IMG/VR virus record: IMGVR_UViG_3300019758_000016
Coordinates: 1 to 36,396 of that record
Direction: 5' to 3' (one strand)
DNA: 36,396 bases
Source of the DNA: a virus
The notes under the pieces were generated by a model. The model searched no databases and was not told the origin of the DNA. It was given only the letters and a program-made list of their open reading frames with translations. The position numbers were made by a program, and so were the translations under genes. Shown in pieces: positions 1,548 through 33,216 of the stretch. Position 1 is the first letter of the stretch. Each line of letters begins with the position of its first letter.

Positions 1548-3340
1548 TATCGAATTCCCCTTTTCCAATCTTCGTAGGTTAGTTTTTGTTTACTGGTGCT
1601 ATCTAAGAAAGCCTTTATCTTCTTAGTAGTATACCATATATACCATTCTTTGTCAAGCCACATTGGAACTTTTTTATCCAAAACATTATCATTAGTAATG
1701 AAGCAATGGTCGGGTGTATCTGCAACTCTATCCAAACTATCATATTCTTTATCACGATGTTTTTTTAACAATTCCGTATCATTTGGATTTGTAGATGCAA
1801 AACAACGATGGACACGTTCGCTCAAAATTTTACCGTTGTGTACTCCATAATCATACTTTCTGCTTATTTTATAAATCTTTTGGAACATACGCAAATCATC
1901 ACATTCCATTATTGTTTTTCTTGGGTCTGTTCCATATAGGTAATATTCCAATAGGACTTTGTTTAGAATTGGTAGGTTGTAATCCAAATCGTGTTGTTTT
2001 TTCGCAACGCTACCTTTGCTTTTTGATTTGCCATCAGCATCTACGATGATATAGTTGTTTACATTTGATTGAACAACTTTTCTATATTCATCATATTCAA
2101 GTTCCATTCTAGTGCGTTTACACCATTCATCACAAATAGCCATAATTTCTTCTCTATCTTCATCACGATAAAGTTTAATCAAAATACCGTCTGTGTTTGA
2201 TTGGATAAGTTCGCATTTACCATACAGTTTATCTAATAGGTCTACCAATAGTAGTTGTCCTGCAATACAAACATTGTTAGCCATCAAAGGGTCATACAGA
2301 TTATTAAATCTATCTTTAGATGCTCCGAATGTTGAGTTAAGGACGATTTTTCTTGGTTGCTGTCTAGGGTCTTTGTTGCGTTTCATAACAATACGCTCGT
2401 CACGAATTTGAGTGTATTTTTTAGGATTGCGAACATTGCGAGATAAGAAATCATATTCAATCATGATTGCAGGATAGTATGAACCAACATCAGCCATGAT
2501 ATACGTTCCCTCACCCATATAATCTGGAATAGCACCATGTAGACCACCAACACCAAATACATGAGGTACACCGTTTATATCTTCCTTAAAAGACATACCC
2601 TTATATAGTTCTTCGTGGTCATAACCTTTTGCTTGCATTTCCTTAGCTTTTTTCGCCCACTCCAAATATCTATCTTTCAGATATTCATATCTTCCTAAAT
2701 CCAAAGTTTCTGGAAATATTAAATCAAACTCGTCATTTCGTTCCTGTTTAACAGCACCTAATATAATGGCTGAAATCTGTGCTTTGGTTTTACTCAATGC
2801 AGTAGAATTTAATCCAAACTCTTGTACCAGTCCAACATGGCTATCCCACTCTGTTTTATTTCTTAGGAATACTTCAAAGGTTTCCATAACATCGTGAAAG
2901 CAATATTTTTCGGTTTCAAGTTTTTCATCATCAGTTAGTTTTCTGTCAATATCAAAAGGTACAGTTGTTTCTCTAATATCGTGTCCCATATAGGCTTCTA
3001 GTTCTTTTAATGATTTAGCACTATACCCAGAACCCACTAGAGTATCATAGTTAATAATTGGAAATTTTATCAATTCCCTTGAAAACATAAAACCTTTTTG
3101 GTCTTGGTTGATAATCCAATCTGACATTTCATATGGATTAAAGTCACACAAGATTGCTTTTGCTATCCATTGGTCATAACCTCTACTGTTATATCCAACC
3201 CAAACCTCGTTTTTGTAATGCTCATAAAACCGTTCAAGTGTTTCTTTGCTGTTCCAAATCTTGTACTTTTTCCTAGTATTTGTATCTAACCAACATATTA
3301 GCCAGTCATGTTTAAATACTTCAAAGTCATATATAATTAT
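1547..3340 (-). CDS. Family B DNA polymerase with 3'-5' exonuclease; non-canonical start
   Basis: Replicative DNA polymerase. Polymerase motifs, numbered from the start proposed here: motif A DVGSYYP at 284-290, motif B KIVLNSTFG at 331-339, and motif C SNTDG around 381-385, where Asn replaces the first Asp of the usual DTD while the catalytic second Asp is kept. The proofreading exonuclease has Exo I YDFEVF (D5, E7), Exo II NSRGYD (N51, D56) and Exo III YCFHD (146-150). Exo I and II lie upstream of the first usable ATG/GTG/TTG codon (a TTG at 3151), yet the frame is open and clearly conserved back to about 3346. I place the start at ATA 3340, eight bases after an AAGGGGG ribosome site; ATT at 3346 or 3337 is possible. 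A hairpin (3369-3390) precedes the site. Function is secure; the start is uncertain and could reflect a sequencing error. Confidence 0.88.
   Translation of the reverse strand: MIIYDFEVFKHDWLICWLDTNTRKKYKIWNSKETLERFYEHYKNEVWVGYNSRGYDQWIAKAILCDFNPYEMSDWIINQDQKGFMFSRELIKFPIINYDTLVGSGYSAKSLKELEAYMGHDIRETTVPFDIDRKLTDDEKLETEKYCFHDVMETFEVFLRNKTEWDSHVGLVQEFGLNSTALSKTKAQISAIILGAVKQERNDEFDLIFPETLDLGRYEYLKDRYLEWAKKAKEMQAKGYDHEELYKGMSFKEDINGVPHVFGVGGLHGAIPDYMGEGTYIMADVGSYYPAIMIEYDFLSRNVRNPKKYTQIRDERIVMKRNKDPRQQPRKIVLNSTFGASKDRFNNLYDPLMANNVCIAGQLLLVDLLDKLYGKCELIQSNTDGILIKLYRDEDREEIMAICDEWCKRTRMELEYDEYRKVVQSNVNNYIIVDADGKSKSKGSVAKKQHDLDYNLPILNKVLLEYYLYGTDPRKTIMECDDLRMFQKIYKISRKYDYGVHNGKILSERVHRCFASTNPNDTELLKKHRDKEYDSLDRVADTPDHCFITNDNVLDKKVPMWLDKEWYIWYTTKKIKAFLDSTSKQKLTYEDWKRGIR
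1628..1656 (-). promoter_or_regulatory. Consensus sigma-A-type promoter inside polymerase gene, for primase-helicase
   Basis: On the minus strand TTGACA (1656-1651), a 17-base spacer and TATACT (1633-1628), with TGG before the -10. It lies 80-110 bases upstream of the primase start and matches the other early promoters of the window in spacing and flanking bases. Confidence 0.75.
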
Positions 3341-10002: not shown

Positions 10003-10272
10003 TCACCCCTTATTCAACTTCTGCTTATATACTTGGTGTACACCAGTTGATGCTAGACCACTTGCAATACCCACTGCAACGCTTGTAATGGGGTCAGAAG
10101 CAGGGAAATCTGGCATACCAATATAGAATGCTACACAACCTAAAATACCACCTGTAACGCCACACACAATGGGAATTAGATTATCATTATTATACTTAGT
10201 TGCTTTTACAATAGAACCCATTAGATAAGAGATTACCGTAATCCCAATAACATTTGTTAAACCAAAATCCAT
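10003..10272 (-). CDS. Phage holin (Hol44/Phage_holin_5_2-like)
   Basis: An 89-residue membrane protein with segments LTNVIGITVISYLMGSIVKA, LIPIVCGVTGGILGCVAFYI and ITSVAVGIASGLASTGVHQV, then a basic tail. The pattern (TNVIGITVISYL, IPIVCGVTGGILG, AVGIASGLASTGV) is typical of the Hol44 holin family of Clostridia-type phages. Holins open the membrane so the endolysin can reach the wall. Start ATG 10272 overlaps the endolysin stop (TAATG). Confidence 0.85.
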   Translation of the reverse strand: MDFGLTNVIGITVISYLMGSIVKATKYNNDNLIPIVCGVTGGILGCVAFYIGMPDFPASDPITSVAVGIASGLASTGVHQVYKQKLNKG

Positions 10273-10838
10273 TATTTACCTCCATTAAATCTATAAAACA
10301 TTGCCCAAATTTCTTCTCGTGTAACAGGGTCTTGTGGTCGTTCTCCATCAGAAATACCATTATCTTTAACCCAAACTTGTGCATTTTTAGCAAAGTCACT
10401 AACTTTCTGTTCTTTCATTTTTTCATTCTCCTTATACTTAGGCATCAATGGAACATTTTTATTAGTAGATTGTCTATTATTATCCCACTGAATATGACAG
10501 TATTCAACAAAAGACTTCCAATCGCCTGCCCATGAAAATCCATATTTTTTAGCAATTTTAGCACATCTTCTAAAGAATTTCATATCACTCCAACCTTTGG
10601 AACGACTATAAAAATCTATAGCCAAACCTGCACCATGATAGGTTGTATATTTTGCGTTAGTGACGATATTACCCTCTCTAGTGCGTCCTTGTTCATACAG
10701 ATATGCTTGATATTCATTGTCCCTCAAAGTGTTGCTTATTTCAACGTCTAAGCCTTGTGAACGGCATTCAGCGAGCCATAGATTAACATTATAAGCAACA
10801 TCTTCTCTTAAATCGCTAATTTTTCTACTATTAATCAT
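10272..10838 (-). CDS. Endolysin: M15 peptidase with C-terminal SLH segment
   Basis: Cell-wall lysis enzyme of 188 residues. The N-terminal domain matches L-alanyl-D-glutamate/VanY-type M15 peptidases: TTYHGAGLAIDFY gives zinc ligands H68 and D75, and EYCHIQW gives H115. After a short linker, residues 147-185 (VSDFAKNAQVWVKDNGISDG, then RPQDPVTREEIWAMFYRF) form one S-layer homology repeat, which normally anchors proteins to secondary wall polymers. There is no secretion signal, so it depends on the adjacent holin. The same SLH type occurs in the upstream protein. Fold and ligands are clear; the cut bond is inferred from the family. Confidence 0.85.
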   Translation of the reverse strand: MINSRKISDLREDVAYNVNLWLAECRSQGLDVEISNTLRDNEYQAYLYEQGRTREGNIVTNAKYTTYHGAGLAIDFYSRSKGWSDMKFFRRCAKIAKKYGFSWAGDWKSFVEYCHIQWDNNRQSTNKNVPLMPKYKENEKMKEQKVSDFAKNAQVWVKDNGISDGERPQDPVTREEIWAMFYRFNGGK

Positions 10839-15216: not shown

Positions 15217-16980
15217 TTAAATAGCAACTACTTTTGTTTTACCTTTTAAAGTACCATCAAAAGAAATTGTATTTTCTATAATTTTACCAGTAATTGTATC
15301 TTCATCAATATTTTGGAAAGTAACATCATCTTGAACATCCAATTGTGGAAAACCACGTTGGTCAAAACTATATGAATGTTGATGTGCAAATAAATCTGAT
15401 TGAAATGTAACCCAGTTAGCACAGGTTGTCAAATCTGAAATAAGAGTATTTGAAACCGATATATCAGAACCTTGTGGATTTACATTTACATTATAAGCTA
15501 CTTCTGTATATTTCAACAGAGAACCCCTTACCTTTATTGTACCAGAACCAGTCACATTTATTAACATCTTAGAACCAAAAATTGTTGGAGAACCATTAAC
15601 TGTAAGTCCTACATTAGTATATGATATAGAACTTGCAGGTTCATAGTTAACAATAACATCTAAATTTGTTGCACCACTAATGTCTACACTAGCTATTTCT
15701 GAATCAGCTTCTAATGATACATCATAATATTTAGAGTAAAAGTTTTTGATTCTCGGAATACTTTTGAAAGTAGGGTCTGTGATACTATTTGAAAGTGTAA
15801 AATCAAATTCAGTTGTACCAAAAGTAACAGGTTCTATCTTAATTTTACCATCACGTTGAATATTAAAATTACAATTACCTGCATTTACTAATAACTGCAA
15901 ACATTCTTTACAACTCATATTATACAGCATAACTTTTGTTGTTATACTATTTAAAGAAGAATCAATAATAAACTTATCTTGGACACCTGCGAAAGTAATT
16001 ACATCTGTAATTAAATCAGCTAATGAATGTCCACCTACATAATAAATACCCTCGTCATAAATAGTATTTAAACCTACCAATAAAGATTGAGTTTTAAAGT
16101 TTATTAGTTTGGCTACACCACCATCTGTAACTTGTGCTTCACCAGTGGTTAAATCTAAACACATTGGAATCCATTCAATACTATTATCATCTAGTGTTTG
16201 ACCAATAAAAAATGCAACTTCTTGACCTGCTTCTAAATAATCCAAATAGTTAGATGGATTTTCTGGGTCATAATTTCTATCAATATCAAGAATTTCAAAG
16301 TTAAATTCATTTAGTGGTAATTCAAAAGAGTTAAGTTCTATTGATTGTTTTAACTCACACTTGGTAATATCTTCTGTCGCAAGGTTAATTAAAATACCAT
16401 AAATTAATTTATTAAGTCTAATACGTCTATAAGGAATTGCAGTTTCTTTAAATTCAAAAACTATTTTATCAATATCATCCATTTGAGTTGGAACAACATA
16501 AGCAGAACTAGTATTTGGTGTATAATCATTATTATAAGATAAAGAAACACCATTATATGCCTTAATATTAAATAATGATGGATAACTATTTTTTATTGTA
16601 TCAAAATCAATTGTTAAACCTGCTAAACTCGTAACTTCACTAAAAGTTATTGTAATAGTTGGATTTGTATTAAACGTTCTATCAATTTTAGACATTTCAG
16701 AACTAACATAACCTTGTGGAAAAGTATCATCAATAGCTTTTACAATACCTAAATCATTTAATATAAATCTGTTAGGTTCTAAAGTTTCATATGTTTTTTC
16801 GACAGTAAATCCAATATTATCAATTTCAGTTACATCAGAGAATCCCAAATGCCCATTATCCACCAAAGTAGATAAAGATGGAGCATCTGGGTCTACTAAA
16901 CCATACGTTATTCTAACATGAGATTCATCCCTAAAAGATTTATTCAATGCAGTTTTTGCTTCATTTGATATAGTATACAT
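15217..16980 (-). CDS. Distal tail / baseplate protein
   Basis: A 587-residue, beta-rich structural protein encoded after the tape measure and the DUF6711-like gene, where distal tail and tail-associated proteins lie. It opens MYTISNEAKTALNKSFRDES, has a jelly-roll-like stretch with FRRIRL-type motif (IPYRRIRLNKLIYGI, residues about 180-200), then a gp27-like region (LPLNEFNFEILDIDRNYDPE; CLDLTTGEAQV; HSLADLITDVITFAG; LQLLVNAGNCNFNIQRDGKI; DVQDDVTF). The YRR-L-YGIL pattern is common in baseplate hub proteins of Bacillota siphophages. No peptidase motif was found. Confidence 0.7.
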   Translation of the reverse strand: MYTISNEAKTALNKSFRDESHVRITYGLVDPDAPSLSTLVDNGHLGFSDVTEIDNIGFTVEKTYETLEPNRFILNDLGIVKAIDDTFPQGYVSSEMSKIDRTFNTNPTITITFSEVTSLAGLTIDFDTIKNSYPSLFNIKAYNGVSLSYNNDYTPNTSSAYVVPTQMDDIDKIVFEFKETAIPYRRIRLNKLIYGILINLATEDITKCELKQSIELNSFELPLNEFNFEILDIDRNYDPENPSNYLDYLEAGQEVAFFIGQTLDDNSIEWIPMCLDLTTGEAQVTDGGVAKLINFKTQSLLVGLNTIYDEGIYYVGGHSLADLITDVITFAGVQDKFIIDSSLNSITTKVMLYNMSCKECLQLLVNAGNCNFNIQRDGKIKIEPVTFGTTEFDFTLSNSITDPTFKSIPRIKNFYSKYYDVSLEADSEIASVDISGATNLDVIVNYEPASSISYTNVGLTVNGSPTIFGSKMLINVTGSGTIKVRGSLLKYTEVAYNVNVNPQGSDISVSNTLISDLTTCANWVTFQSDLFAHQHSYSFDQRGFPQLDVQDDVTFQNIDEDTITGKIIENTISFDGTLKGKTKVVAI

Positions 16981-17381: not shown

Positions 17382-19988
17382 CTATCTTGCAAACTCTGGG
17401 ACACCAAAGTTAACACCTTTATTCTTCTTAACTTGTTCTTGATTACGATAAATGACTTCACCATCCAAAGTAATAGTCGGAACACTACCTGTCATATCAA
17501 CTTCACCCATAGCATCTTTTGTTGCTGAATAAATAGCATCGTACATTGCTGTAACAAATCCACTATTTTCCAAAGGCATTACGGTTGTTTTATTGTTATA
17601 AGAACCTAGTAATTCAGCTTTACCACCCTCACCTGCTTCAAAGACTGAACCACCATCTAACATACCACCACGGGCAAGTCTTGGAATATGAACTCTACTT
17701 AGATTAAAACCAAATTCTCCACCACCGAGCCATTCTGGAATATCAAATTGAATTTTATTAATATTATCAATCATTTTATTGACAGCAGATTCAACTATTG
17801 TAATAGCACCATTAAACGCTCCTCTAAACATTTCTTTAATACCATCACTGAAACCCTTACCTAAAGTAAGCCATTTCTCTTTAGTGAACCAAGGTGAAAT
17901 AGTTTCATCCCACCAAGTTTGCATCATAGTTTTTGTTAAATCTATAATTTCAACTAACCAAAGTCTAAAACGTTCAATTAAAATATTTAATTTTTCTATC
18001 CATCTAACTGGATTTAAATATTCAAAACACCATTCAATTGCTTCTGAAAATTTATCTTTAATTGTAATTTTCATTTGCTCAAACTCTTCATCTGTCATAA
18101 TTCCTAACGCTCTAACAGCAAGGGATACCCCCTCAAAACCAAGAACCAATAATCCAAGTGGAGCAGATGGTCCCATTAATAGTGCTAAACCACCAATTAT
18201 AATTAAAAGGTCTGTTACATCAATAGCAGCTTCGTCAAGTGCAGTAGTAAAATCTTCTTTGAATTGTCTAATATTTTCCATAATTTCTGGTGGAATAACT
18301 TTAGCAACTTGTTCTCCAACCCATTTAAAACCCTTACCAATTGGTGTTAGAATTTTATCATTTACAACACCCCATACAGTTGTGAATAAATCACCAACAC
18401 GTTTAACACCTTTTCTAAACGCTTCATTGTTTTGCCATAAATCATAAATTCTACCTACCATTAATGTTAGTACACCTGCAATAAGCAAAATAGACGGTAA
18501 CGCATTCATAAATGTTGCAGAAAATCCTGCCATCCAAGGAAACATTGTTTTTAAACCCATTCCAATACCGAAACGTTTAAATACAACAAGTGCTTCACCA
18601 AGTCTAGTTATAAATGGAGTAAGCATTGTGGTTGCCATGCCAATACCTTTTCTGATTATAATACCAGTCCATATAGCACCAATAACAATACTTATATCTC
18701 TTATTTTTTCAAGATTAGTATATGTTTTATCTAATTCCCAAGTTACTTCACCAGTTTCTTCATTAGTTCGTGCTGTAAAACCTAACCATTCCATAATACT
18801 AGTTTTTATATCATCAGCTTTTTGTTTAACACTTGCTAATTTAGAATCATATTCATCTAAAATTTCTAATGAACCTGCACCAATACCACCGAATCCACCA
18901 CCTGCTCCACCACCTGCAGTTGGAATTGTTATAGCATTTAATTCATCAAATGGAGCAGAAATATTTTTCATTTCTTTTTTTAGTTTTCCAGTTGATTTAG
19001 TAACATCATCTATACCACCAGAAACTCCACCGAATTTATCTTCCATATTTTTAGCATCTAATTCAACAATACCAAAAACAGCACCTAAAATAGAAAATAA
19101 TTCAGTTAGAGCCATTACAAAACCACGAATATATGGTACAACTCTACCAATCATTGGAATAAATACACTAGATATGGTACGTCCAAGTGTAATAAAGTTC
19201 TCACCAAGTAATCTAATTTGGTTTGCAGGTTGTTCAATAGTACGAGCAAAGTCACCATTAGCACCAGATGCTTGACGCATAGCAACAGCCATACGAAGTT
19301 GCATTTTTTCGCCTTGTGACATTGTTCTAACACTTTTTGTAATTCCATGACGTAAAGCTTCTTGTTGTAAGGATGCTTCTGTCAAGTCAAGACCATATTT
19401 ATAAACTGTTTCAGTTTGACCAATCATACCAGAACGTAAGTCACCCATAACTTGTTCAATTGGAATATTAAACAATGAAGATAGGTCGAGAGCCATTCTA
19501 GTAGCATTTATACCAAGAGTAGTAGATTCATTAGATGCCATACCCATTGATTTAGCTAATAGTGTAAATGTACCAGTAGCTTGTCGTAGATTTGTCAAAT
19601 CCAATCCACTTAATTCTGCTAATGCTTTTAGTTCTTTATCTGTTTCTTCTGCTAAACTACCCATTGAAACTTCAAACATATTAAGAATTTCAATAGCGTC
19701 CATACCACTTTGGAACATTCCTGCAAAAGATTGTGCTAGTTTATTCATAACAAAGAAAGTAGCACCACGTTGAAGCATCTTCATACTAGTGGACATTTCA
19801 TTAAAACTCTTACTTGCTCTATTAGCATCTTGTGTTATATTACGAAGTGAACCACGCATTTTATTCATAGCGTTGTTCATTGCTTTTGAATTACCAACAT
19901 TATTTTTAAAAGCGTTACTTAAAGATTTCAAAGCAGTTGTAGTCTTTTTAAAATCATTAGTAACCTTAAAATTTATATTATCAGCCAT
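17382..19988 (-). CDS. Tape measure protein
   Basis: The longest gene (868 residues) sets tail length and probably helps DNA injection. An alpha-helical N-terminus with many Asn and Lys is followed by the conserved tape-measure block at 150-215 (LGINATRMALDLSSLFNIPI, VMGDLRSGMIGQTETVYKYG). Hydrophobic helices lie around 275-310, 430-460, 485-515 and 630-660; a glycine linker is at 359-372. The C-terminus has a beta part (LARGGMLDGGSVFEAGEGGK) seen in many Bacillota tape measures. It follows the tail assembly chaperone genes with only one base between stop and start. Long plus-strand frames opposite this gene are shadows. Confidence 0.92.
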   Translation of the reverse strand: MADNINFKVTNDFKKTTTALKSLSNAFKNNVGNSKAMNNAMNKMRGSLRNITQDANRASKSFNEMSTSMKMLQRGATFFVMNKLAQSFAGMFQSGMDAIEILNMFEVSMGSLAEETDKELKALAELSGLDLTNLRQATGTFTLLAKSMGMASNESTTLGINATRMALDLSSLFNIPIEQVMGDLRSGMIGQTETVYKYGLDLTEASLQQEALRHGITKSVRTMSQGEKMQLRMAVAMRQASGANGDFARTIEQPANQIRLLGENFITLGRTISSVFIPMIGRVVPYIRGFVMALTELFSILGAVFGIVELDAKNMEDKFGGVSGGIDDVTKSTGKLKKEMKNISAPFDELNAITIPTAGGGAGGGFGGIGAGSLEILDEYDSKLASVKQKADDIKTSIMEWLGFTARTNEETGEVTWELDKTYTNLEKIRDISIVIGAIWTGIIIRKGIGMATTMLTPFITRLGEALVVFKRFGIGMGLKTMFPWMAGFSATFMNALPSILLIAGVLTLMVGRIYDLWQNNEAFRKGVKRVGDLFTTVWGVVNDKILTPIGKGFKWVGEQVAKVIPPEIMENIRQFKEDFTTALDEAAIDVTDLLIIIGGLALLMGPSAPLGLLVLGFEGVSLAVRALGIMTDEEFEQMKITIKDKFSEAIEWCFEYLNPVRWIEKLNILIERFRLWLVEIIDLTKTMMQTWWDETISPWFTKEKWLTLGKGFSDGIKEMFRGAFNGAITIVESAVNKMIDNINKIQFDIPEWLGGGEFGFNLSRVHIPRLARGGMLDGGSVFEAGEGGKAELLGSYNNKTTVMPLENSGFVTAMYDAIYSATKDAMGEVDMTGSVPTITLDGEVIYRNQEQVKKNKGVNFGVPEFAR

Positions 19989-22887: not shown

Positions 22888-24246
22888 TTAACCGTTTGTG
22901 ACTAGTTTAGCCATTAGGATAGATTTTGCAGGCATTTTACGTTCCCAAGATGCAGAATCTAGGAAAGTTCCGTCTGGCATACCTACGTCTGTAGTAACAT
23001 CACCTTTAAAGGAGAAACCTTGTGGGTGCATCGCTTCACGAACACGAGTGTAGATGAAGTCTTGACCACCGAATTTAGCAGGGTCTCTATCCATTTCAGA
23101 TGGAGTATCCACTGGAGCATCAGCCAGATTGATTGCACCATTACCCATGATAAAGGTTGTGTACTCTTTAGAACCAGTAGCATTGGTTTCAACTGGAACA
23201 CCATCGTTGATGATGACAGTTTTACCATTGATTGTGCCAATTGGTAGATTTCTAGTAATACCACGTTCGTCAGTATACTTAGAGTATTCTAGCAATTGTA
23301 GGTTAGCCAAACGACTAGCAACAACGGAGTGCATGATAGCCAAAGAATAACCATCTGCATTATCACCATTAGCTTTGATACAAGCATCTTCAATAGAAGT
23401 TACACCGACTTTATTATCATCAGTTACACCACTAGCAGGTGTTGCATCAACACTAGCATTTGCTGTTACACCAGTTGTACCAGTATCAGTAAATGTGATT
23501 TCATAAGTTGTATCGAATGGGGCAATCTCTTTAGCTGTTAGTACGATAAAGTCACCGTCAACTGTAGCTGTGAAGAAAGCACCAACATCTGCATCACCAT
23601 CAAGTGCAGTTTGTACTGCAAGAGCAACTTTAGCAGGAGTATCTTGACCTGCAGAAGTAACTGCAACAACAACATCTTTAGGGGAGTTAGTCATATCAGA
23701 TGCAGTAACACCGATTGTAATATTACCATCAGAAGTAGCACCTGCAGTAAACTCCATTTTCTCTGCTTGGAACTTATCAGCAGTAGAAATATCAGTTGTA
23801 TGCAAAGCAAAATCAGCATCGCCTGTGATACCAAAAATTGCATTTAGCAAACCGATAAGACGCTCTTGTTTTTTCTTTTGCCAATAACGAGCAACACCTG
23901 CTGTAATTTGTGCCATTGGGTCTGCACCAGAGTTAAAGTCTTTAATGAATGACTTAGCATTCCAACCTTTTTGTCTACCGTAAACAGTGCCAGACAAGCT
24001 ATCACCAGTTAGGTCAGTAGTAGCGATATCATTTACACCGTTGTAAACACCCTCGTCACCACCAATGTTATTGTAGTAAGGAATTGTGAAGAAGTTAGAG
24101 CCGTTTGAAATCATATTAGCGATTTCAGAGTTATACGTTACAGCACCACTTTGCAACATATTCAAAAGCACCATATCTGGTGTATTACGCCATTCGTAGT
24201 TAAAAATCTCCGAATCATATGGGAAATTTAGATTTGTACCTGCCAT
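22888..24246 (-). CDS. Major capsid protein (HK97 fold) with inserted domain
   Basis: A 452-residue protein. Capsid features: N-terminal GTNLNFPYDSEIFNYEWRNT, the E-loop-like stretch NFFTIPYYNNIGGDEGVYNG, then RQKGWNAKSFIKDFNSGADP, the A-domain helices (YSLAIMHSVVASRLANLQLL) and a C-terminal PSEMDRDPAKFGGQDFIYTR. Residues about 162-278 are an extra Ala/Thr/Val-rich beta domain (TAGATSDGNITIGVTASDM; AKVALAVQTALDGDADVGAF; VDGDFIVLTAKEIAPFDT) that interrupts the fold and probably projects from the capsid surface. AAAAGGAGAAAA precedes ATG 24246. Confidence 0.9.
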   Translation of the reverse strand: MAGTNLNFPYDSEIFNYEWRNTPDMVLLNMLQSGAVTYNSEIANMISNGSNFFTIPYYNNIGGDEGVYNGVNDIATTDLTGDSLSGTVYGRQKGWNAKSFIKDFNSGADPMAQITAGVARYWQKKKQERLIGLLNAIFGITGDADFALHTTDISTADKFQAEKMEFTAGATSDGNITIGVTASDMTNSPKDVVVAVTSAGQDTPAKVALAVQTALDGDADVGAFFTATVDGDFIVLTAKEIAPFDTTYEITFTDTGTTGVTANASVDATPASGVTDDNKVGVTSIEDACIKANGDNADGYSLAIMHSVVASRLANLQLLEYSKYTDERGITRNLPIGTINGKTVIINDGVPVETNATGSKEYTTFIMGNGAINLADAPVDTPSEMDRDPAKFGGQDFIYTRVREAMHPQGFSFKGDVTTDVGMPDGTFLDSASWERKMPAKSILMAKLVTNG

Positions 24247-24263
24247 AATTTATTTTCTCCTTT

Positions 24264-24833
24264 TTATTTCATAAATGATTTAAATAGTTCTGGGTTTTCA
24301 GTTTTTAGTTTTAGTTTTTCATCATAACCCATTTTATTAAAACTTTCCTTTGTAATTTCAGTACCACCATTACCAGAGTTTGGAGGTGGAACATTACTTA
24401 GTTCAGTTCTAACTTTAGTTTCAACGTCAGCCATAGTTGTCTTTACTACATTGATAAATCTATCAACATTAGCTGTTGTACCGTCAGCATCTTTAGTTAC
24501 CATTAGATTAAGCATTTCCTCATACTTATCTTTTGGAACACCTGCTTCGGTTAGTTTTTGTGTAGCCAAGAGAAGATTACTTTGTCTTGCGAGTTCGGAT
24601 TTTTCACTTTCAAGTGCTTTTACTTGTTCATCAAAATTCTTTTTAGCCAATTCTTCTGCACTTAGTCTAGCTTCGTCTTCAATTTTTTGTTTTATAGCTT
24701 CTTCTGCCAGTCTAATAGCTTCTTGTTTGTCAGTTTCGAATTTTTCTCTAGCACTAGTTACTCGTCTATCGCCCTCACTTTGCAAAAGTGCATTTACTTC
24801 CTCTTGTGTATAAGTTTTCGGTTCTGTACTCAT
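24264..24833 (-). CDS. Capsid scaffolding protein (DUF4355-like)
   Basis: A 189-residue, highly charged, helical protein between portal and capsid genes. It begins MSTEPKTYTQEEVNALLQSE, has a long coiled coil rich in Glu, Lys and Ala, and ends KLKLKTENPELFKSFMK. This is the usual form of Bacillota phage scaffolds, which guide capsid assembly and leave. I choose ATG 24833 (AAGGAG upstream) over the in-frame start at 24866. A late-class promoter lies about 60 bases upstream. Confidence 0.85.
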   Translation of the reverse strand: MSTEPKTYTQEEVNALLQSEGDRRVTSAREKFETDKQEAIRLAEEAIKQKIEDEARLSAEELAKKNFDEQVKALESEKSELARQSNLLLATQKLTEAGVPKDKYEEMLNLMVTKDADGTTANVDRFINVVKTTMADVETKVRTELSNVPPPNSGNGGTEITKESFNKMGYDEKLKLKTENPELFKSFMK

Positions 24834-24891
24834 TTTAATAATTCTCCTTAATCCTATATAGTTCAAATGCCCTATATATTATTCTACTTAT

Positions 24892-24924
24892 ATTATACCA
24901 TAAAAATATAAAAATAATAACATC
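24892..24924 (-). promoter_or_regulatory. Late-class promoter for scaffold-capsid-tail operon
   Basis: Minus strand GATGTTA (24924-24918), 17 bases, TGGTATAAT (24900-24892). The -35 hexamer at normal spacing (TTATTA) is poor. Two more sites with identical geometry lie before other late genes. Confidence 0.75.
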
Positions 24925-24939
24925 ATCTGGGGAAAAACT

Positions 24940-26367
24940 TTATTCTGTTAAAGCATCCCCAGTTTGTTGTGTCACTACAGGCTCTTTTCCACCAAATTGT
25001 TCTTGCCAGAACTCTTCACCACGGCTAATATAGTCATTAACATGAGAAACTAAGTCTACAATTGCCAAACAATCAGCAGGATGTAGTGTTTTTGTAGCAA
25101 TCAAGTTAGCATAAGATTGTGTTTTAACCAAAAGGTTATTTGTTTTATTTCTGCTAAACTTAATATCAACATCCAATAATGAAAGTTTATTATCACTTCT
25201 TGTACCCATGATGTTAAGCATGATTTTGAGAGCCATTTTTTCAGAACGTTTAAAAGTTAGTTCCTTATTTCTAGCTACAATTTCTAAATCTGCCCATCCA
25301 TCACGAAGTTCTACTGCTTGACCAGTATCTCCACCACCAGAAGCACTATCATTTCTACTTGGAATACCAATTAGAGCGTAGATATAATCTTTTAGTTCTT
25401 CTGCAAACATAGCAACACCAGTTTGGTCTAATTGATTTGAGATAGTTTGTACTTCAACTCGACCATCACCTTTATTAACTAGTGAAATAACACCAGATGC
25501 TCTCATTTGGTCATATACTTCGGCATTAATATCAGCATTTACGAATACAACTAGTGACTGAACTAACTGTTCAATATCGTCCATACGTCCACTTTCTAGT
25601 GTATTTAGTGCATCCATAACACCAATCATTAGTTCCCAGTCACCCAATCTCCAAATATTATTAGGATATTCAACAATTGGAACACCACCAATAGAATATG
25701 GGGAGAAAGATTCAAATTCAAAATCATCTTCTTCTCCGAAAGTGAAATCTTTTGAATAAATTGTATAAACACCAAATTCTGTATAACAATAAATCTTATA
25801 TCCGATTTGTTCACCAGTATTATTGAATAAACCTAGATAATTTACACCCATTAATGGTTTTTCAGCTACATTATTTTCATATACAACAAAAGTATTCTCT
25901 GGTTCTAGCATTTTATCCTCAAATGGAACTGCATCACCATAAATACCATCAGTATAGATAATTCTATAAGCTGTACCACAAATAGATTGATATTCAGCAA
26001 TATCTTTATCAACACTAGCCTTATCTTCATAGGCTACAACCTTATTTAGATATGCAACTTCGTCTTTTTTAGAACCATCTAAGTCAACATACTGAATTGG
26101 AGTACCAAGAAAATAACCTGTAATTGCCCTAGTAACCATTTGGGCATGATTTATTACAATTTGATTGTTAATTTCTGGTCTAACTTCTTTTTCTTTATCC
26201 AAAATAGTTTGAATACCATTTTTATAGTCTACCAAATAGTTAATTTCAGAACGATTTAGGATATGTGTTCTATACGCTGTGGAAAGTGCTAGTTTTAAAT
26301 TGTTTTCATTTCTAATATCATTTGAATTAAATTCGCTAATAATTTTTCTTCGTCCAGATAGTGTCAT
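24940..26367 (-). CDS. Portal protein (SPP1 gp6-like)
   Basis: A 475-residue protein forming the DNA gate of the capsid. Typical SPP1/phage_portal features: RTHILNRSEINYLVDYKNGI near the N-terminus, NQIVINHAQMVTRAITGYFL, GTPIQYVD, then ICGTAYRIIYTD, and the stem/crown region with ALNTLESGRMDDIEQLVQSL and IPSRNDSASGGGDTGQAVEL. Two bases separate its start from the terminase stop. Length is normal for the family. Confidence 0.92.
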   Translation of the reverse strand: MTLSGRRKIISEFNSNDIRNENNLKLALSTAYRTHILNRSEINYLVDYKNGIQTILDKEKEVRPEINNQIVINHAQMVTRAITGYFLGTPIQYVDLDGSKKDEVAYLNKVVAYEDKASVDKDIAEYQSICGTAYRIIYTDGIYGDAVPFEDKMLEPENTFVVYENNVAEKPLMGVNYLGLFNNTGEQIGYKIYCYTEFGVYTIYSKDFTFGEEDDFEFESFSPYSIGGVPIVEYPNNIWRLGDWELMIGVMDALNTLESGRMDDIEQLVQSLVVFVNADINAEVYDQMRASGVISLVNKGDGRVEVQTISNQLDQTGVAMFAEELKDYIYALIGIPSRNDSASGGGDTGQAVELRDGWADLEIVARNKELTFKRSEKMALKIMLNIMGTRSDNKLSLLDVDIKFSRNKTNNLLVKTQSYANLIATKTLHPADCLAIVDLVSHVNDYISRGEEFWQEQFGGKEPVVTQQTGDALTE

Positions 26368-26368
26368 A

Positions 26369-27913
26369 TTATATTCCCAACCTTTTTCTATCTAAAATTT
26401 TGATACTCATTCCACTCAAATCTTGGTGGAGTTGAGCCAACATAGCCAGTGCATCTGGTGCGTCATCATGTTTGTTCTTACCAGTTTGAGTAAATGAGAA
26501 TGTGTTTTTCATAAACTTATCATATTCGCTATTTTTAGCATAAGTGCTTGGATGCCTAAATATGAATTGCTTTTTAACGTAATCACTATAAGTTATAATC
26601 TTAACCATTTTATTATTACTAGAGAAGAATGTTCGAACAGATGTTCTAGCACCTTTCTCTTTTAACAAGTCTTGTAAGTTTTCAGCATAATAGTTACCAC
26701 CGTTATTCATTTCAACATCACCACGAACCACTTTATGGTCTGCCCATTTTTCAGCAACTCTAGGTCTAGTTATCTCTGGAAGTCTATTATCAAAAATAAC
26801 ATCGTCAACATATACAAAATCACCATGAACATAACCAATAGGACTAGCAACATTGTCTATACCCATATTTTTACTATCACAAATAGAAATGATAGAATCT
26901 GGTTGTTCTTCTGGTAATGTGAAATAATATTGCAATTCGTCTTTTTGATACAATAAACCCTCACGTTCAATTGGTTCTTGCATATATAGAGCGTTAAAAC
27001 TTAATTCATCCATAGAATCTTGTTGTTGTTTATAATAATTAGTATCAAAACCACCGTGAAAATTAAAAGCACTTTCACCATCTTCGTCAAAACAAGGTAA
27101 TTTAATAGATTTGCAACGTGGATTATCCTCATTATCAATATCTAAACGTGAGATAGGGTCATGAACGCTCCATCTTGTAGCAACATGAATTTCTTTACAA
27201 CCCATTTTCTTTCTTTGTCTTGCATTGACTGAATAAGTTTGATATAATTTTTCCAAACGTGTAGGTGACATAGCTTCTTCAATACCAGAAACCATATCAT
27301 CGCAGTACAGATAGTTACCTGCTTCTGCACGACCTGTCATAGAACCATTAATTGGAACAAATGTGATACTTGGGTATCTTTTTTGTACTTTGAGCCAAAT
27401 TTCTTCACGCTTTGCGTTTTGGTTTACTAAAGGGGATTCTGGAAACATTGCTAAATACCGTTCATGCTGAACTATTTCCATAACACCGATATAGAAACTT
27501 GAAGTAATACTATCAGAATATGATGTTGCAAGCTGTGTTTGCTCTGGATGCCTACCAATAATCCACGCTAGAAAACGTATTCCATATGTGGTTTTACCAA
27601 CCCTAGGAGGGCAGGAAACCAATAACAAATCGTACTTGTCATAAATTTCCATGCCGTTAAGTCCATCTACCAACTCTGCCATACAATCTTTTCGGTGGTC
27701 GTGGAAACCCCTGTTTGGGTCGGTCTTATCTTCATCGAACTCCAAATATTCATTGAACGCACCAAAATCATACGGTGCAATCAAACATAATATCTGCTCA
27801 TACAACTCATAAACTTCCAAAAGTTCTGTTGGAGTTTTTTCGCTGTCTAATAATTCCTCTTTTAGTTTCGGGATAACCTCATTTTTATAATGCTCAACTT
27901 GTTCAATATCCAT
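26369..27913 (-). CDS. Terminase large subunit
   Basis: ATP-driven DNA packaging motor of 514 residues. ATPase: Walker A CPPRVGKTT at 101-109, Walker B LYCDDMV at about 202-208, then a TRW coupling segment (IHVATRWSVHDP). The C-terminal RNase H-like nuclease shows acidic positions in SICDSKNMG and KHDDAPDALAML. It starts right after the small gene stop (TAAATG). Portal follows. Full length. Confidence 0.94.
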   Translation of the reverse strand: MDIEQVEHYKNEVIPKLKEELLDSEKTPTELLEVYELYEQILCLIAPYDFGAFNEYLEFDEDKTDPNRGFHDHRKDCMAELVDGLNGMEIYDKYDLLLVSCPPRVGKTTYGIRFLAWIIGRHPEQTQLATSYSDSITSSFYIGVMEIVQHERYLAMFPESPLVNQNAKREEIWLKVQKRYPSITFVPINGSMTGRAEAGNYLYCDDMVSGIEEAMSPTRLEKLYQTYSVNARQRKKMGCKEIHVATRWSVHDPISRLDIDNEDNPRCKSIKLPCFDEDGESAFNFHGGFDTNYYKQQQDSMDELSFNALYMQEPIEREGLLYQKDELQYYFTLPEEQPDSIISICDSKNMGIDNVASPIGYVHGDFVYVDDVIFDNRLPEITRPRVAEKWADHKVVRGDVEMNNGGNYYAENLQDLLKEKGARTSVRTFFSSNNKMVKIITYSDYVKKQFIFRHPSTYAKNSEYDKFMKNTFSFTQTGKNKHDDAPDALAMLAQLHQDLSGMSIKILDRKRLGI

Positions 27914-29056: not shown

Positions 29057-29085
29057 TTGACAAGATTTAAAATCTATGATATAAT
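29057..29085 (+). promoter_or_regulatory. Perfect consensus plus-strand promoter
   Basis: TTGACA (29057-29062), 17-base spacer, TATAAT (29080-29085). It drives the only convincing plus-strand gene. Confidence 0.88.
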
Positions 29086-29117
29086 ATATTTATATTAAAA
29101 AAAAAGGAGATATTAAA

Positions 29118-29354
29118 ATGATTATAAACCCAATTGATGTTGAAGTTACAAGAGGACTTGAATTATACAATTATATAATTAATAAAATAGAAACAGCAAA
29201 GAAAAATGGAAATAAGAATTGTTCAATACACTGGAATGAAATTTCCAAATATACTGGACGCTCCACCGAAATCGCATCTAAATATTTAATTAGAATGGGT
29301 TTTTATTGTAAAGAAGATTTTATGAATCCCTGTACTTTCAATATATGTTGGTAG
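29118..29354 (+). CDS. Orphan plus-strand small protein, possible helix-turn-helix
   Basis: A 78-residue protein opposite in direction to all other genes. It has a perfect promoter and an AAAGGAG ribosome site. The middle (CSIHWNEISKYTGRSTEIAS, then KYLIRMGFYCKED) could be a helix-turn-helix or winged helix, with helix EISKYTG and recognition-like helix STEIASKYLIRMG. Being divergent from the late terminase operon and convergent with the amidoligase unit, it may be a regulator or an independently expressed accessory gene. I do not recognise a family. Confidence 0.65.
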   Translation: MIINPIDVEVTRGLELYNYIINKIETAKKNGNKNCSIHWNEISKYTGRSTEIASKYLIRMGFYCKEDFMNPCTFNICW

Positions 29355-29437: not shown

Positions 29438-29482
29438 CTTTAACACGCTAAAGGGGTAGGGTACTACTGTGCTAAAGTGTGC
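29438..29482. repeat. CTTTARCACGCTAAA-type elements left of the amidoligase unit
   Basis: CTTTAACACGCTAAA (29438-29452) and GTGCTAAAGTG (29469-29479). The first recurs with one change at 32957-32971; the second is the exact reverse complement of 32955-32965. The rest of 29355-29600 holds T-runs and no gene. Confidence 0.6.
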
Positions 29483-29494
29483 ATAAAAATACAA

Positions 29495-29520
29495 GGGAAT
29501 TGTATAAATATACAACTCCC
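29495..29520. terminator. Inverted repeat, probable terminator between convergent genes
   Basis: A 12-base stem with one mismatch (GGGAATTGTATA / TATACAACTCCC) and a two-base loop. On the minus strand it is followed by TTGTATTTTTAT. It lies past the amidotransferase stop and could also end the plus-strand gene. Confidence 0.55.
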
Positions 29521-29600
29521 CTGCAATCTGTCAAGTATTCAATTTTATCATGTGATATAGTATCATGAATGGTAATAACAGGATGAAAATGAACTGTCCT

Positions 29601-30560
29601 TTATTCCTCACTTTCTGCACATGGAGTATCATATGGCGAAGTAATTTCTTTTTTATATCTGTCATAATTCATAATGACATACTGTGCATTGTAACATGCC
29701 TGTATATTTGATATTTGCACTAGATTGTCAGTCAGTGGGTCATATTGATACATCAAATCGTTGCTTGCGATATATACATCATCGTCCAAATCAATCTCCT
29801 TGAAGATGCCATTATCTAGCAGTAATGAACCACTAAAAGGTAGTTGGTGTCCAAGTGCTTGCATTCTCTCATAATTGAATTCTAAACTATCATCATTTTT
29901 GGTAGAGTAGTCATAATATTCGTCATACCAACCATATGAGGAGTATGCCCCTTTATAACTCCATGTTTTGGAATAGCTGTGTGTAAAGTTACTATATAAC
30001 CAACCGTCACACTCATTGAATGCACCAAATACAATCATATCTGTGGTGTCCATAAATAGCCATTTAGCACCACTGTCCGTAATATAAGGGATAAATGCCT
30101 TGCGTTTAAAAAACGCCTTGTCAAGAGCCTTAGGGAACGCCAGACGGTCTTTAATATACTGCATAGTGTCGGAAAAGGTGCTTTTATATGGAATGTCAAT
30201 TGAGGTAACCCCATTCATGGCACAAATTACATCTGTTCGACCTTTTAAGGCTGTCAATCGTTCGTCAACGGCTGTCACTGGGAATGGATGCGTGTTTTCC
30301 TGTGATACACCCCCATGTGTTGAAATACGATAATGCAATAGTAGTTGCACATCTTCCAAATTGTAACGGTCAATAACTAGCTTCTGTAGCGTGTTCTTGA
30401 ATGTATCAAAGGTCATAAAGCCTTTTCTAAATCGTACATGTTTATCTCCCTTTACGCAGAACGCAAAGCCTGCTCCATCGTCGTTATTGTCAAAGCAATT
30501 TCTGATTTTTTCCCAATCCAAAGTGTTGATACCGTATGGCTTTCCTGCAATAATACACAT
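29601..30560 (-). CDS. Class II glutamine amidotransferase
   Basis: A 319-residue N-terminal-nucleophile amidotransferase. MCIIAG exposes Cys2 after Met removal; LLHYRISTHGG (76-84) and NTHPF (89-93) carry the conserved Arg and His region, and AMNGV (114-118) the Asn-Gly oxyanion part. These enzymes free ammonia from glutamine for a partner. The C-terminal half (about 200-319), rich in Tyr and Asp (YSSYGWYDEYYDYSTKNDDS), has no recognised family. It lies 20 bases after the amidoligase gene, the pairing described for phage amidoligase systems. It is the last gene of the unit. SD AAGGGAG. Confidence 0.85.
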   Translation of the reverse strand: MCIIAGKPYGINTLDWEKIRNCFDNNDDGAGFAFCVKGDKHVRFRKGFMTFDTFKNTLQKLVIDRYNLEDVQLLLHYRISTHGGVSQENTHPFPVTAVDERLTALKGRTDVICAMNGVTSIDIPYKSTFSDTMQYIKDRLAFPKALDKAFFKRKAFIPYITDSGAKWLFMDTTDMIVFGAFNECDGWLYSNFTHSYSKTWSYKGAYSSYGWYDEYYDYSTKNDDSLEFNYERMQALGHQLPFSGSLLLDNGIFKEIDLDDDVYIASNDLMYQYDPLTDNLVQISNIQACYNAQYVIMNYDRYKKEITSPYDTPCAESEE

Positions 30561-30580
30561 AATATTTTTCTCCCTTATAT

Positions 30581-32215
30581 TTAAAGTTTAATTTCTGTTA
30601 TTCTTGAATCAATGCCCAATTTATGGCAATAGTTGTTAAAATTATCAGATGCACCTGCGAAAATATCTTTCCATTTTGCGTTATAACATGTTTCCATATC
30701 ATGGTTTTTTGCGTACTCTGTGAACAGGTCAACCCATTCCAAAGATGCAAGGAAAGTATTGGTATTTAGTGTTCCCTTAAAGAAACGAAATTCCACAGTA
30801 GCGTTATTTCTGATATTTATGGCTTGATATCTTGCGTAGGCATTATCCTCGATAATGTCGTTTACATTGCAATCTTCCAGTAATGATTTACTTTTATTCT
30901 TTTTTGCCCACTGGTCAAGACCGTCGTACTCCCTGCGTGAAAATGTTACAACATCGTCCCATATTTTATCAAGCATTACAATCATTCGTGCGATTGTGGG
31001 GTTTGCATTGTTGTATTCATCCCTTAATGCTTTTCGTGATACATGCACATGCAGTCCACAAGTATCCACATCATGACTGCGTAAATCATGGAACGCTAGT
31101 TGAGAAAATGCAGTTTTGTAGTCCTTTTGCATATGGTATGCTAGTGTGGCAGGCTGTGTAGCAATCTCGAAGCCGTCAGACAATGAGCCGTCATATTTGC
31201 ACTCTATGAAATTTTCACCTAATATTTCTAAAGCACTTATTGCTCCTTTGTTCTTTTCACAACCGATACTTTCAACTTCCAACTCGATACCAAAATACTT
31301 GTCGGTTTCCTCTCCGTCCAGTTTGTAAAAATGGTCTGCTTCTGTGTGTCCATAACCCCCAATCACTGAACGATTTTCGTAACATTCGTTACAGTAGTAG
31401 TCCCCACTAAATTCTACGCTTTCATCAATTTCGATGAAATTCCCACATTCATAACATTGCCGATAGTGTTCGTATATACAACTGTTACACATTCTTTCCC
31501 CGTTTGGTGCTTCCATTACATCCCAACTGCGTACATATTCATTGCAGGTTTCGCAATGTATGAGAACCTCTCTCGCACATTCTCGGCAGTATTGTCCACC
31601 ACTTGCTCGTGTGCTAGTTCTTTTCTTGTGCCAACAACCACAATTTTCGCAATGATGATAATTTTCCGATGCACATTCTCTACATATGAACCCATCACCA
31701 GTTATGAACATATCAGATGTTCCATGATGGATTTTCCCACAGTCATGACATTCCCAACCATTAAAAACTTGCTCGTCAGTCATGTAAATTTGTAATAATT
31801 CTTGTGATAACTGCATACCACCTCTGCGAAGTCCGTAATGAATAGAACCGTCCACAACTGTAATTCCAGTAACACGAAACGCTTTTCTACGCTTGAAGCG
31901 TTTACGCAGTCCGTCAGTCATTTCTATGCCACCGTAAGTCCTGCCAACTCTTAGATATGGTTTCAGCGTTACAAAATCCCCACGCTTAAATAATGGCATT
32001 TCGTTCTCATTTGGGTCAACGAAATAAGTGCCTCTTGCCCACAACCATGAATTTTCTACCACTCTCACATGGTCACCCTCGCTAACGCTTTCAATGGTCA
32101 TAAGTTCGTTTGCTCGTGTTCTCATATCAGAATTGATATTCACACCGTTTATTTGATATGGGACTTCATCAATTGATGCGATTACTCGGACTTTCATACC
32201 TGCATAAAGTTGCAT
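30581..32215 (-). CDS. Amidoligase with SH3-like N-terminus and four zinc ribbons
   Basis: A 544-residue multidomain protein. Residues 1-150 look like small beta barrels (MKVRVIASIDEVPYQINGVN; KRGDFVTLKPYLRVG). Residues 156-281 contain four tandem CxxC...CxxC zinc ribbons (CHDCGK, CENCGC, CETCNE, CYECGN with partners CREC, CREC, CNSC, CNEC). The C-terminal half matches COOH-NH2 amidoligases: FGIELEVES (308-316), KYDGSLSDGFEIATQP (340-355), CGLHVHVSR (386-394) and TVEFRFFKGTLN (473-484). Such enzymes form amide bonds with ATP; the adjacent amidotransferase would supply ammonia. The zinc array may dock a protein or nucleic acid target. Start ATG 32215, with AAGGAG nine bases upstream. Target unknown. 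Confidence 0.85.
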   Translation of the reverse strand: MQLYAGMKVRVIASIDEVPYQINGVNINSDMRTRANELMTIESVSEGDHVRVVENSWLWARGTYFVDPNENEMPLFKRGDFVTLKPYLRVGRTYGGIEMTDGLRKRFKRRKAFRVTGITVVDGSIHYGLRRGGMQLSQELLQIYMTDEQVFNGWECHDCGKIHHGTSDMFITGDGFICRECASENYHHCENCGCWHKKRTSTRASGGQYCRECAREVLIHCETCNEYVRSWDVMEAPNGERMCNSCIYEHYRQCYECGNFIEIDESVEFSGDYYCNECYENRSVIGGYGHTEADHFYKLDGEETDKYFGIELEVESIGCEKNKGAISALEILGENFIECKYDGSLSDGFEIATQPATLAYHMQKDYKTAFSQLAFHDLRSHDVDTCGLHVHVSRKALRDEYNNANPTIARMIVMLDKIWDDVVTFSRREYDGLDQWAKKNKSKSLLEDCNVNDIIEDNAYARYQAINIRNNATVEFRFFKGTLNTNTFLASLEWVDLFTEYAKNHDMETCYNAKWKDIFAGASDNFNNYCHKLGIDSRITEIKL

Positions 32216-32234
32216 TTTCAAAATCTCCTTTTAA

Positions 32235-32375
32235 TTACCAGATTGTTTTAATGTATTCGCTGTATGAGGTGTTACCCCCATGTAATTTGTGGGACAGCCA
32301 TAACAGGCTTTCAAATAATAAGTAGGTCAACGCTACGGCAGTAGTCACCATACAGGCAAGCATAATTTCAATCAT
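32235..32375 (-). CDS. Small membrane protein, 46 residues
   Basis: ATG 32375 has a perfect GGAGG site and overlaps the previous stop (ATGA). One hydrophobic segment (residues 3-28). Second gene of the amidoligase unit. Function unknown; it might place the system at the membrane. Confidence 0.65.
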   Translation of the reverse strand: MIEIMLACMVTTAVALTYLLFESLLWLSHKLHGGNTSYSEYIKTIW

Positions 32376-32518
32376 TTTGAACCTCCTTTCACATCATTTA
32401 CAATTGTAGAAATTGCATTTTGAATTTTTCCAATCTCCTTATATGCGTTTACTGCTACGATTGGATTATCCAACATTTCAGAACAAGCATCAAGAATAGC
32501 CATCAATTGTTTTACCAT
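32372..32518 (-). CDS. Small helical protein, 48 residues, first gene of amidoligase unit
   Basis: ATG 32518 with GGGGGTGA five bases upstream; reads MVKQLMAILDACSEMLDNPI then a second helix. The alternative upstream start (32554) lacks this site. It is directly behind the unit promoter. Function unknown. Confidence 0.6.
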   Translation of the reverse strand: MVKQLMAILDACSEMLDNPIVAVNAYKEIGKIQNAISTIVNDVKGGSK

Positions 32519-32560
32519 TTTTTCACCCCCTGTTTTGTGTTTCGTGTTTAGCACTCTTTT

Positions 32561-32589
32561 AGTATATCACCACTTTTCCATAATGTCAA
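32561..32589 (-). promoter_or_regulatory. Consensus promoter of the amidoligase unit
   Basis: TTGACA (32589-32584), 17-base spacer, TATACT (32566-32561). It gives the unit expression independent of the late promoters. Confidence 0.85.
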
Positions 32590-32599
32590 GAACTTTTTT

Positions 32600-33190
32600 T
32601 GAGCTTTCCAAATCCGTTTGGTGGTCGAAGTCAATCGCCAGTTTCCAACCCTGTTTGGTGTGTCGCTCGTTTGAACTGTTTATATCTTAATCCATAAATG
32701 TGAACTAGATATGAACAAATTATGAACAAATTATGAACATTCCAAAATACAGGGGATACATATATAAATGCGTGTGTATGTGCGTGTGTGTAGCGTGTAC
32801 GACGCTTAAAACGCTCTCACAGGCTCTCACAGGCTCATATAGAGCATTTAAGGCTATGGGGTATATACTGACCCTCACAGACTCTTAAAACGCTTTACAG
32901 GGGATTATAGACGCTTTACTAATTTAGCACTTTAGTTCGTGAAAGTTTTCGGTCCACTTTAGCACGCTAAATCGTTAGCACTTTAGTGCGTGAAAGTCTT
33001 GCATCCAGATATTACCACCTCCCCATATATACCTAAAGAGTTTGAAAGCTGTGCCTTATAGAGTTTGAAAGCTGTGAATGGCTCTGTGACGCTCTGAGAG
33101 GCTCTACAACGGCTTTTAAGGTACAGGGGTATATAAACATACTGCTAGGGGTCTTAAAACGCATTCTACGGCTTACAGGGGCATAACAAA
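32600..33190. repeat. Repeat-rich non-coding region between amidoligase unit and small terminase
   Basis: No gene on either strand. It holds an 11-base tandem TATGAACAAAT (32710, 32721, partial 32732), a GT-rich run (32771-32798), a 10-base tandem GCTCTCACAG (32813, 32823, diverged 32833), CTTAAAACGC at 32805, 32884 and 33153, TACAGGGG at 32749, 32896, 33122 and 33174, and a 23-base repeat TTAGCACTTTAG-CGTGAAAGT (32924-32946, 32975-32997). Being next to the small terminase it is a candidate packaging site or origin. Confidence 0.7.
33038..33076 (+). repeat. Pair of GAGTTTGAAAGCTGTG repeats, 23 bases apart
   Basis: Identical 16-base copies at 33038-33053 and 33061-33076; a partial copy (GAGTTTGAAAACT) is at 33274-33286. 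The core and the 23-base step equal those at 8639-8671. Confidence 0.75.
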
Positions 33191-33191
33191 A

Positions 33192-33216
33192 GACACCCAC
33201 CATAATAGTGAGTGCC
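33192..33216 (-). terminator. Terminator after small terminase gene
   Basis: Minus strand stem GGCACTCAC / GTGGGTGTC (9 pairs, two G-U), 7-base loop, followed by TTTTGTTAT. It lies about 90 bases past the stop at 33307. Confidence 0.7.

Follow-up and report, generated by a model that had tools for sequence, protein, structure and literature searches.

Amidoligases paired with a glutamine amidotransferase (GATase) are already part of the published record on phages. In the Methylophilales phages MEP401 and MEP402 the amidoligase gene adjoins that of the GATase (gp05-06 and gp06-07), an arrangement recorded as an auxiliary metabolic pair (PMC10580990), and the "peptidoglycan modification" cassette of phiEco32 and PSA-HP1 likewise contains both enzymes (PMC5498523). 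A likeness in outline extends to MurT–GatD of Staphylococcus aureus, a ligase/GATase pair that carries out glutamine-dependent amidation of the D-Glu carboxylate of peptidoglycan precursors (PMC3267633, PMC5871853). Here we describe an amidoligase–GATase unit on the minus strand of IMG/VR record IMGVR_UViG_3300019758_000016, which comprises 36,396 bases of one virus, is possibly a fragment, and is hereafter called the window. The unit belongs to a known, uncharacterised kind of phage pair. Our results favour a reading that we consider fairly probable, in which the unit is a moron for a glutamine-dependent amide synthetase of two subunits, which binds its substrate through LIM-like ribbons.

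An earlier reading of the same DNA, made from sequence alone (the original prediction), had placed at this site a promoter, two tiny open reading frames (ORFs), a 544-residue amidoligase, a class II GATase and a closing hairpin. All of these were found, on the minus strand, as follows (aa, amino acids; nt, nucleotides):

32561-32589, minus: promoter TTGACA-N17-TATACT with TG before the -10 element, 11 of 12 consensus positions matched
32372-32518, minus: tiny ORF of 48 aa, not conserved, ATG at 32518 behind GGGGGTG
32235-32375, minus: tiny ORF of 46 aa, not conserved, behind AAAGGAGG, with one hydrophobic N-terminal stretch
30581-32215, minus: amidoligase, 544 aa, ATG at 32215
31382-31750, minus: four tandem CxxC-x17/18-CxxC units, LIM-like (amidoligase residues 156-181, 189-213, 221-246 and 254-278)
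30680-31309, minus: glutamine-synthetase-like catalytic core (amidoligase residues 303-512)
29601-30560, minus: class II GATase, 319 aa, ATG at 30560
29490-29525, minus: intrinsic terminator closing the unit, with a 16-bp stem, a 4-nt loop and a T tail

The ORFs of the unit are preceded by purine-rich ribosome-binding sites, and about 20 nt separate the end of the amidoligase gene from the start of the GATase gene. Upstream, a further terminator-like hairpin (33217-33191) separates the unit from a gene resembling that of the small terminase (terS-like), so that the unit is insulated on both sides. Across the region, promoter matches (23 versus 20.2 in shuffled sequence) and terminator matches (3 versus 2.8) occur at shuffle level, and the case for these signals therefore rests on the quality and placement of the two that bound the unit. 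The G+C content of the unit is 38.4%, against 32.9% for the rest of the window. The counts from which the original prediction had drawn this difference, 26/60 at 31501-31560 and 16/60 at 16501-16560, are exact; samples of 60 bases prove little, and it is the whole-unit difference that holds. The G+C content at third codon positions (GC3) of the amidoligase and GATase genes (0.34 and 0.36) is among the highest of the 31 genes, and the codon-usage deviation of the amidoligase gene is the largest among genes of more than 500 codons. At 40.2% G+C, the capsid gene is just as rich. Its own promoter and terminator, insulation, high G+C and GC3 and odd codon usage give the unit the build of a moron. 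In the distant phages EL753P1 and MT835537, which share 34-37% identity in the large terminase (TerL), the pair is not near TerL. Judged from these signals, the foreign composition and the absence near TerL in distant phages, the unit is a phage moron.

Catalytic sites and zinc-ribbon-like units

The amidoligase matches Pfam Amidoligase_2 (PF12224) with an E value of 0.002 and 18.5 bits, below the curated cut-off of 22 bits, whereas its close relatives score 24.7-40 bits; its match to phrog_16683 is strong (E 5e-47). The original prediction had raised loss of catalytic residues as a result that would count against it. They are not lost: G309, E311, E313, D342, E350, G387, H389, R428, N467, E475 and R477 are invariant in all 99 aligned sequences, and H391 is kept in 97 of them. 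The pattern ExE...HxH...R...ExR is that of the metal and phosphate sites of glutamine synthetase. The model of the core is confident, with a predicted local distance difference test (pLDDT) score mostly above 90; residues 304-538 superpose on YbdK with a Z score of 12.5, and the core matches glutamine synthetases and glutamate–cysteine ligase with Z scores of about 12. By fold and residues, the protein thus looks like an intact glutamine-synthetase-like carboxylate–amine ligase, for which ATP-dependent amide formation is predicted. No NCBIfam model was found for either enzyme of the window, and neither was matched by PADLOC or the defence libraries. The N-terminal 150 residues of the amidoligase match no Pfam family even at E 10 and are poorly modelled, and for these reasons we do not claim the SH3-like domain that this part of the protein brings to mind.

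The ribbon units are modelled with pLDDT mostly 88-97, and Foldseek places them with the LIM domains of PINCH and CRP. The Cys residues of the last unit are kept in more than 90% of the 99 sequences, and ribbon arrays stand in front of the core in most relatives, which makes a macromolecular target plausible. The original prediction had argued for such a target from the zinc array together with a membrane peptide; the first half of that argument gains from the recurrence of the arrays, and the second fails. The 46-aa ORF may encode a membrane peptide, to judge from its hydrophobic stretch, but neither tiny ORF is conserved in any fetched locus, and neither has relatives in Pfam or PHROGs. We therefore rejected both as conserved partners of the enzymes, and the peptide gives no pointer to the target. 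Relatives of the pair have other small neighbour genes.

The GATase scores above the cut-off of Pfam GATase_4, with residues 1-195 forming the catalytic domain. It begins MCII, and Cys2 is present in 56 of 57 aligned relatives. The set C2, H76, R78, H91, N116, G117 and D131 is kept in 56-57 of the 57, and T81 is also conserved. Profile comparison with the GlmS glutaminase (2e-11) aligns the two over the Arg-Thr-His-Gly, His-Pro and Asn-Gly motifs of the glutamine site, and the model of residues 1-195 (pLDDT mostly above 90) finds GlmS/GFAT as its top Foldseek matches (E 3e-6). This protein thus looks like an intact class II glutamine amidotransferase with the glutaminase fold of the N-terminal nucleophile (Ntn) hydrolases, and glutaminase activity is predicted. 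Given the GlmS-like alignment of the glutamine site and the fold, glutamine hydrolysis fits better than a general Ntn peptidase activity.

Conservation and spread of the pair

Single-protein scans of viral contigs returned no close amidoligase and only three GATase relatives, so profiles were needed. Profile scans gave at least 500 candidate relatives in viruses and 480 in genomes, from each of which the best 80 were fetched, and a further 34 loci were reached via the GATase. Where the amidoligase was the sole criterion for choosing a locus, a class II GATase gene follows on the same strand, no more than 1.5 kb downstream, in 137 of 151 cases, and the proportion is similar after redundancy cuts at 70% (68/76) and 50% (41/47) identity. 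Absence of the gene pair from all related phages, the other outcome that the original prediction had named as adverse, is the opposite of what we see. The two genes of a pair lie a median of 5 nt apart (176 pairs in all, 121 of them at 50 nt or less); Met-Cys stands near the GATase start in 173, and the GATase gene sits at position +1 or +2 from the amidoligase almost without exception.

Phages bearing the pair include those of Mycobacterium (Marvin) and marine Methylophilales (MEP401/402), a spring-water podovirus and a Christensenellales phage. In many viral loci the pair lies close to replication genes. Genes of the integrase, resolvase/recombinase, relaxase, NikA-like, D5 primase or VirB4-like kind lie no more than about 7 kb from the module in 69 of the 80 gut Clostridia loci, indicating that it rides integrative and mobilisable elements there. 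One Ruminococcus genome holds up to six PF12224 genes.

The partner is not of one type throughout. Most viral loci have the GATase type of the window, whereas Clostridia loci have a type nearer GlmS and PurF. When the partner label (phage type, GlmS type or none) is mapped on the amidoligase tree, at least eight changes are needed, with fewer forced by supported branches. Because the slot is kept while the GATase subfamily changes, glutamine hydrolysis itself appears to be what the amidoligase needs.

Several further features of these loci were observed. GlmS-type GATases (for example, L161:8279-9259) have a conserved C-terminal helical extension, approximately 'YGV..EDVELLLEYGYTADEIEEML', that belongs to no Pfam family. 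Two amidoligase genes surround or precede one GATase gene in four loci (L016, L020, L021 and L152), which suggests paralogues with different substrates or a mixed complex; in the first three, the unpaired amidoligase gene is an extra copy next to one that has a partner. A third gene follows the pair in 12 marine viral loci (for example, L118:5339-6115), its product weakly resembling the C-terminal, ATP-grasp part of D-Ala-D-Ala ligase. Immediately upstream of the amidoligase, 42 Clostridia loci, about half, have a DUF960 gene (within L127-L206; for example, L137:6695-6982 and L158:4740-5024), whose C-terminal end (LLA-E/S-EY) is very conserved. DUF960 was considered as a substrate and rejected: it is not in the window, three of the five paired genomes checked lack it, and it is present in the control genome of Lactococcus lactis, where the search for the amidoligase family was empty. 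It is thus probably a fellow traveller.

Proposed reaction and alternatives

The gene order, the intact catalytic residues, both folds and the pairing conserved across phages and mobilisable elements are computed results, and they outline a possible reaction. The class II GATase would use its N-terminal Cys to hydrolyse glutamine and would pass the ammonia to the amidoligase. With ATP, the amidoligase would activate a carboxylate as an acyl phosphate, which would then be converted to the amide. The LIM-like ribbon array ahead of the core would bind the substrate, for which a protein or another macromolecule is the likeliest candidate, and the mobile element would profit from the change that the product makes to a host or phage component. 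We infer that the two subunits are physically coupled, that the amine is ammonia, that the ribbons read the substrate and that the element benefits.

Several observations weigh against this scheme. The neighbours of the pair in the window point to no target, and an amidoligase–GATase fusion was sought and not found. In addition, a clade of C. difficile phages and phage-plasmids, with their kin, has an amidoligase with neither GATase nor ribbons, which implies that the GATase is not always needed or that ammonia can come from the host.

A broader version of the scheme, which we put forward tentatively and think possible rather than probable, is that ribbon-amidoligase and GATase form a general mobile-element system, common to unrelated phages and to integrative mobilisable elements of gut Clostridia, that uses glutamine to amidate a host protein or another macromolecule chosen by the LIM-like array and thereby neutralises a host function such as defence. 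The module has been taken up repeatedly by otherwise dissimilar elements, with a swap of glutaminase subfamily, so it should be valuable and its target can be sought directly. If the idea is correct, a mobile element that amidates a macromolecule would be reprogramming its host in a little-known way. The idea predicts a mass shift of about -0.98 Da at each site that depends on glutamine, ATP and Cys2, which renders a 15-year-old guess about phage amidoligases testable.

The alternative that survives best, although we consider it unlikely, is that the pair amidates peptidoglycan precursors, for example at the carboxylates of D-Glu or diaminopimelate, and that the changed wall blocks superinfection or lysis. 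It is the published guess for phage amidoligase/GATase cassettes, in papers that trace it to Iyer 2009 (PMC10580990, PMC11318856, PMC5498523). It would also suit the M15 peptidase of VanY type in the window, a class that cuts stem peptides, and the D-Ala-D-Ala ligase-like third enzyme (weak match) of the 12 marine loci. However, the partners found in the fuller cassette, GGCT and a RimK-type ATP-grasp enzyme, went undetected here: GGACT, phrog_2520 and RimK have no match in the 36,396-base record, which is possibly a fragment and in which other ATP-grasp families were not scanned individually. With these partners undetected, peptidoglycan gains no particular support from this locus. Moreover, a cytoplasmic enzyme with four to six ribbons suits a macromolecular partner better than lipid-linked precursors, and the module also resides on mobilisable elements, which would have less evident reason to exclude superinfection.

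We regard it as improbable that the amidoligase instead tags a protein with an amino acid or peptide and that the GATase-like protein acts as an Ntn hydrolase to remove or trim it. The nearest solved folds do include the Pup enzymes Dop and PafA, along with amino-acid ligases, and Iyer 2009 reportedly predicted tagging systems with Ntn partners for amidoligases. Yet the GATase conserves its glutamine-site residues, the same slot in gut Clostridia is held by GATases most like GlmS and PurF, and no conserved tag-like small protein accompanies the window pair, DUF960 being present in only about half of the Clostridia loci. More improbable still is a small amidated metabolite or modified nucleotide, as in DNA hypermodification or a diffusible inhibitor: enzymes of the glutamine-synthetase fold and GATases commonly use small molecules and many viral loci have the pair near replication genes, but no other base-modification or metabolite genes were recognised among the window proteins scanned, and a small substrate would not need ribbon arrays.

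Gene setting and described systems

The window carries the gene set of a tailed, gut-type phage, with these further features:

26369-27913, minus: TerL, firm match (2e-56)
22888-26367, minus: portal, scaffold and capsid
17382-19988, minus: tape measure
10272-10838, minus: VanY/M15-type D-Ala-D-Ala carboxypeptidase-like protein, likely the endolysin
1547-3151, minus: DNA polymerase
29438-29453, no strand: palindrome CTTTAACACGCTAAAG, downstream side of the unit
32930-32945, 32957-32972 and 32981-32996, no strand: three related palindromes, upstream side of the unit

An exonuclease, RecT and a sigma-like factor are also encoded on the minus strand. We set aside a weak helical match (E 2e-4) between the sigma-like protein and the C-terminal portion of the GlmS-like GATase profile. 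TerL has its nearest kin in Eggerthella phage EL753P1 and human faecal phages (34-38% identity). No near DNA relative of the window was found among 50,697 phage records, and a search for a close TerL relative able to show an empty site found none. Placement of the unit between two terminase genes, as first proposed, is firm on the TerL side and weak on the other: the small terminase call is poor (PHROG E 4.5e-4), and a phosphoesterase gene, small minus-strand ORFs and a plus-strand ORF of 78 aa also lie between them. Nor is the placement a trait of the system: it belongs to this phage, and pairs elsewhere lie near replication genes or on mobilisable elements.

The palindromes, of the form CTTTA(A/G)CACGCTAAAG, flank the unit on both sides and have no other clear copy in the window; the related GTGCTAAAC stands immediately behind the unit promoter. 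A shared regulator may bind them as operators. At 29057-29354, the 78-aa plus-strand ORF, which opposes the unit, has a perfect promoter (TTGACA-N17-TATAAT, 12/12) and no known family, and its product is a candidate regulator. The gap from the unit to the terS-like gene holds some 500 bp of non-coding sequence (32700-33200) that is rich in short direct repeats with GGCTCT/ACGCT words and is possibly a packaging or origin region.

Viral proteins of the same shape as the amidoligase in BFVD bear the names 'Amidoligase enzyme' or 'LIM domain containing protein'. Our literature search, which reached only part of the subscription literature, found no account of the architecture with its ribbon array, of two types of GATase, or of mobilisable elements as carriers; the spread of the pair on such elements looks unreported.

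Set against the described systems, the window pair differs to varying degrees. MurT is a Mur ligase and GatD falls outside the class II GATases with N-terminal Cys, unlike the two enzymes here. The phiEco32/PSA-HP1 cassette differs in having two amidoligases, an ATP-grasp enzyme and GGCT. The MEP401/MEP402 proteins share 18-26% identity with those of the window, with one ribbon-like unit (two CxxC motifs), and their genes lie beside replication genes. The integrase/relaxase elements of Ruminococcus and other Oscillospiraceae share the core with its ribbon array and a class II GATase directly downstream, but their GATase is of the GlmS-like subfamily, DUF960 lies upstream in about half, and they are not phage morons. 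Finally, Marvin gp105-gp106 and the cluster S relatives have, like the window, a CxxC amidoligase followed by a class II GATase in the same order, although at about 27% identity, with fewer ribbons and a long C-terminal extension, and in an unrelated host and phage.

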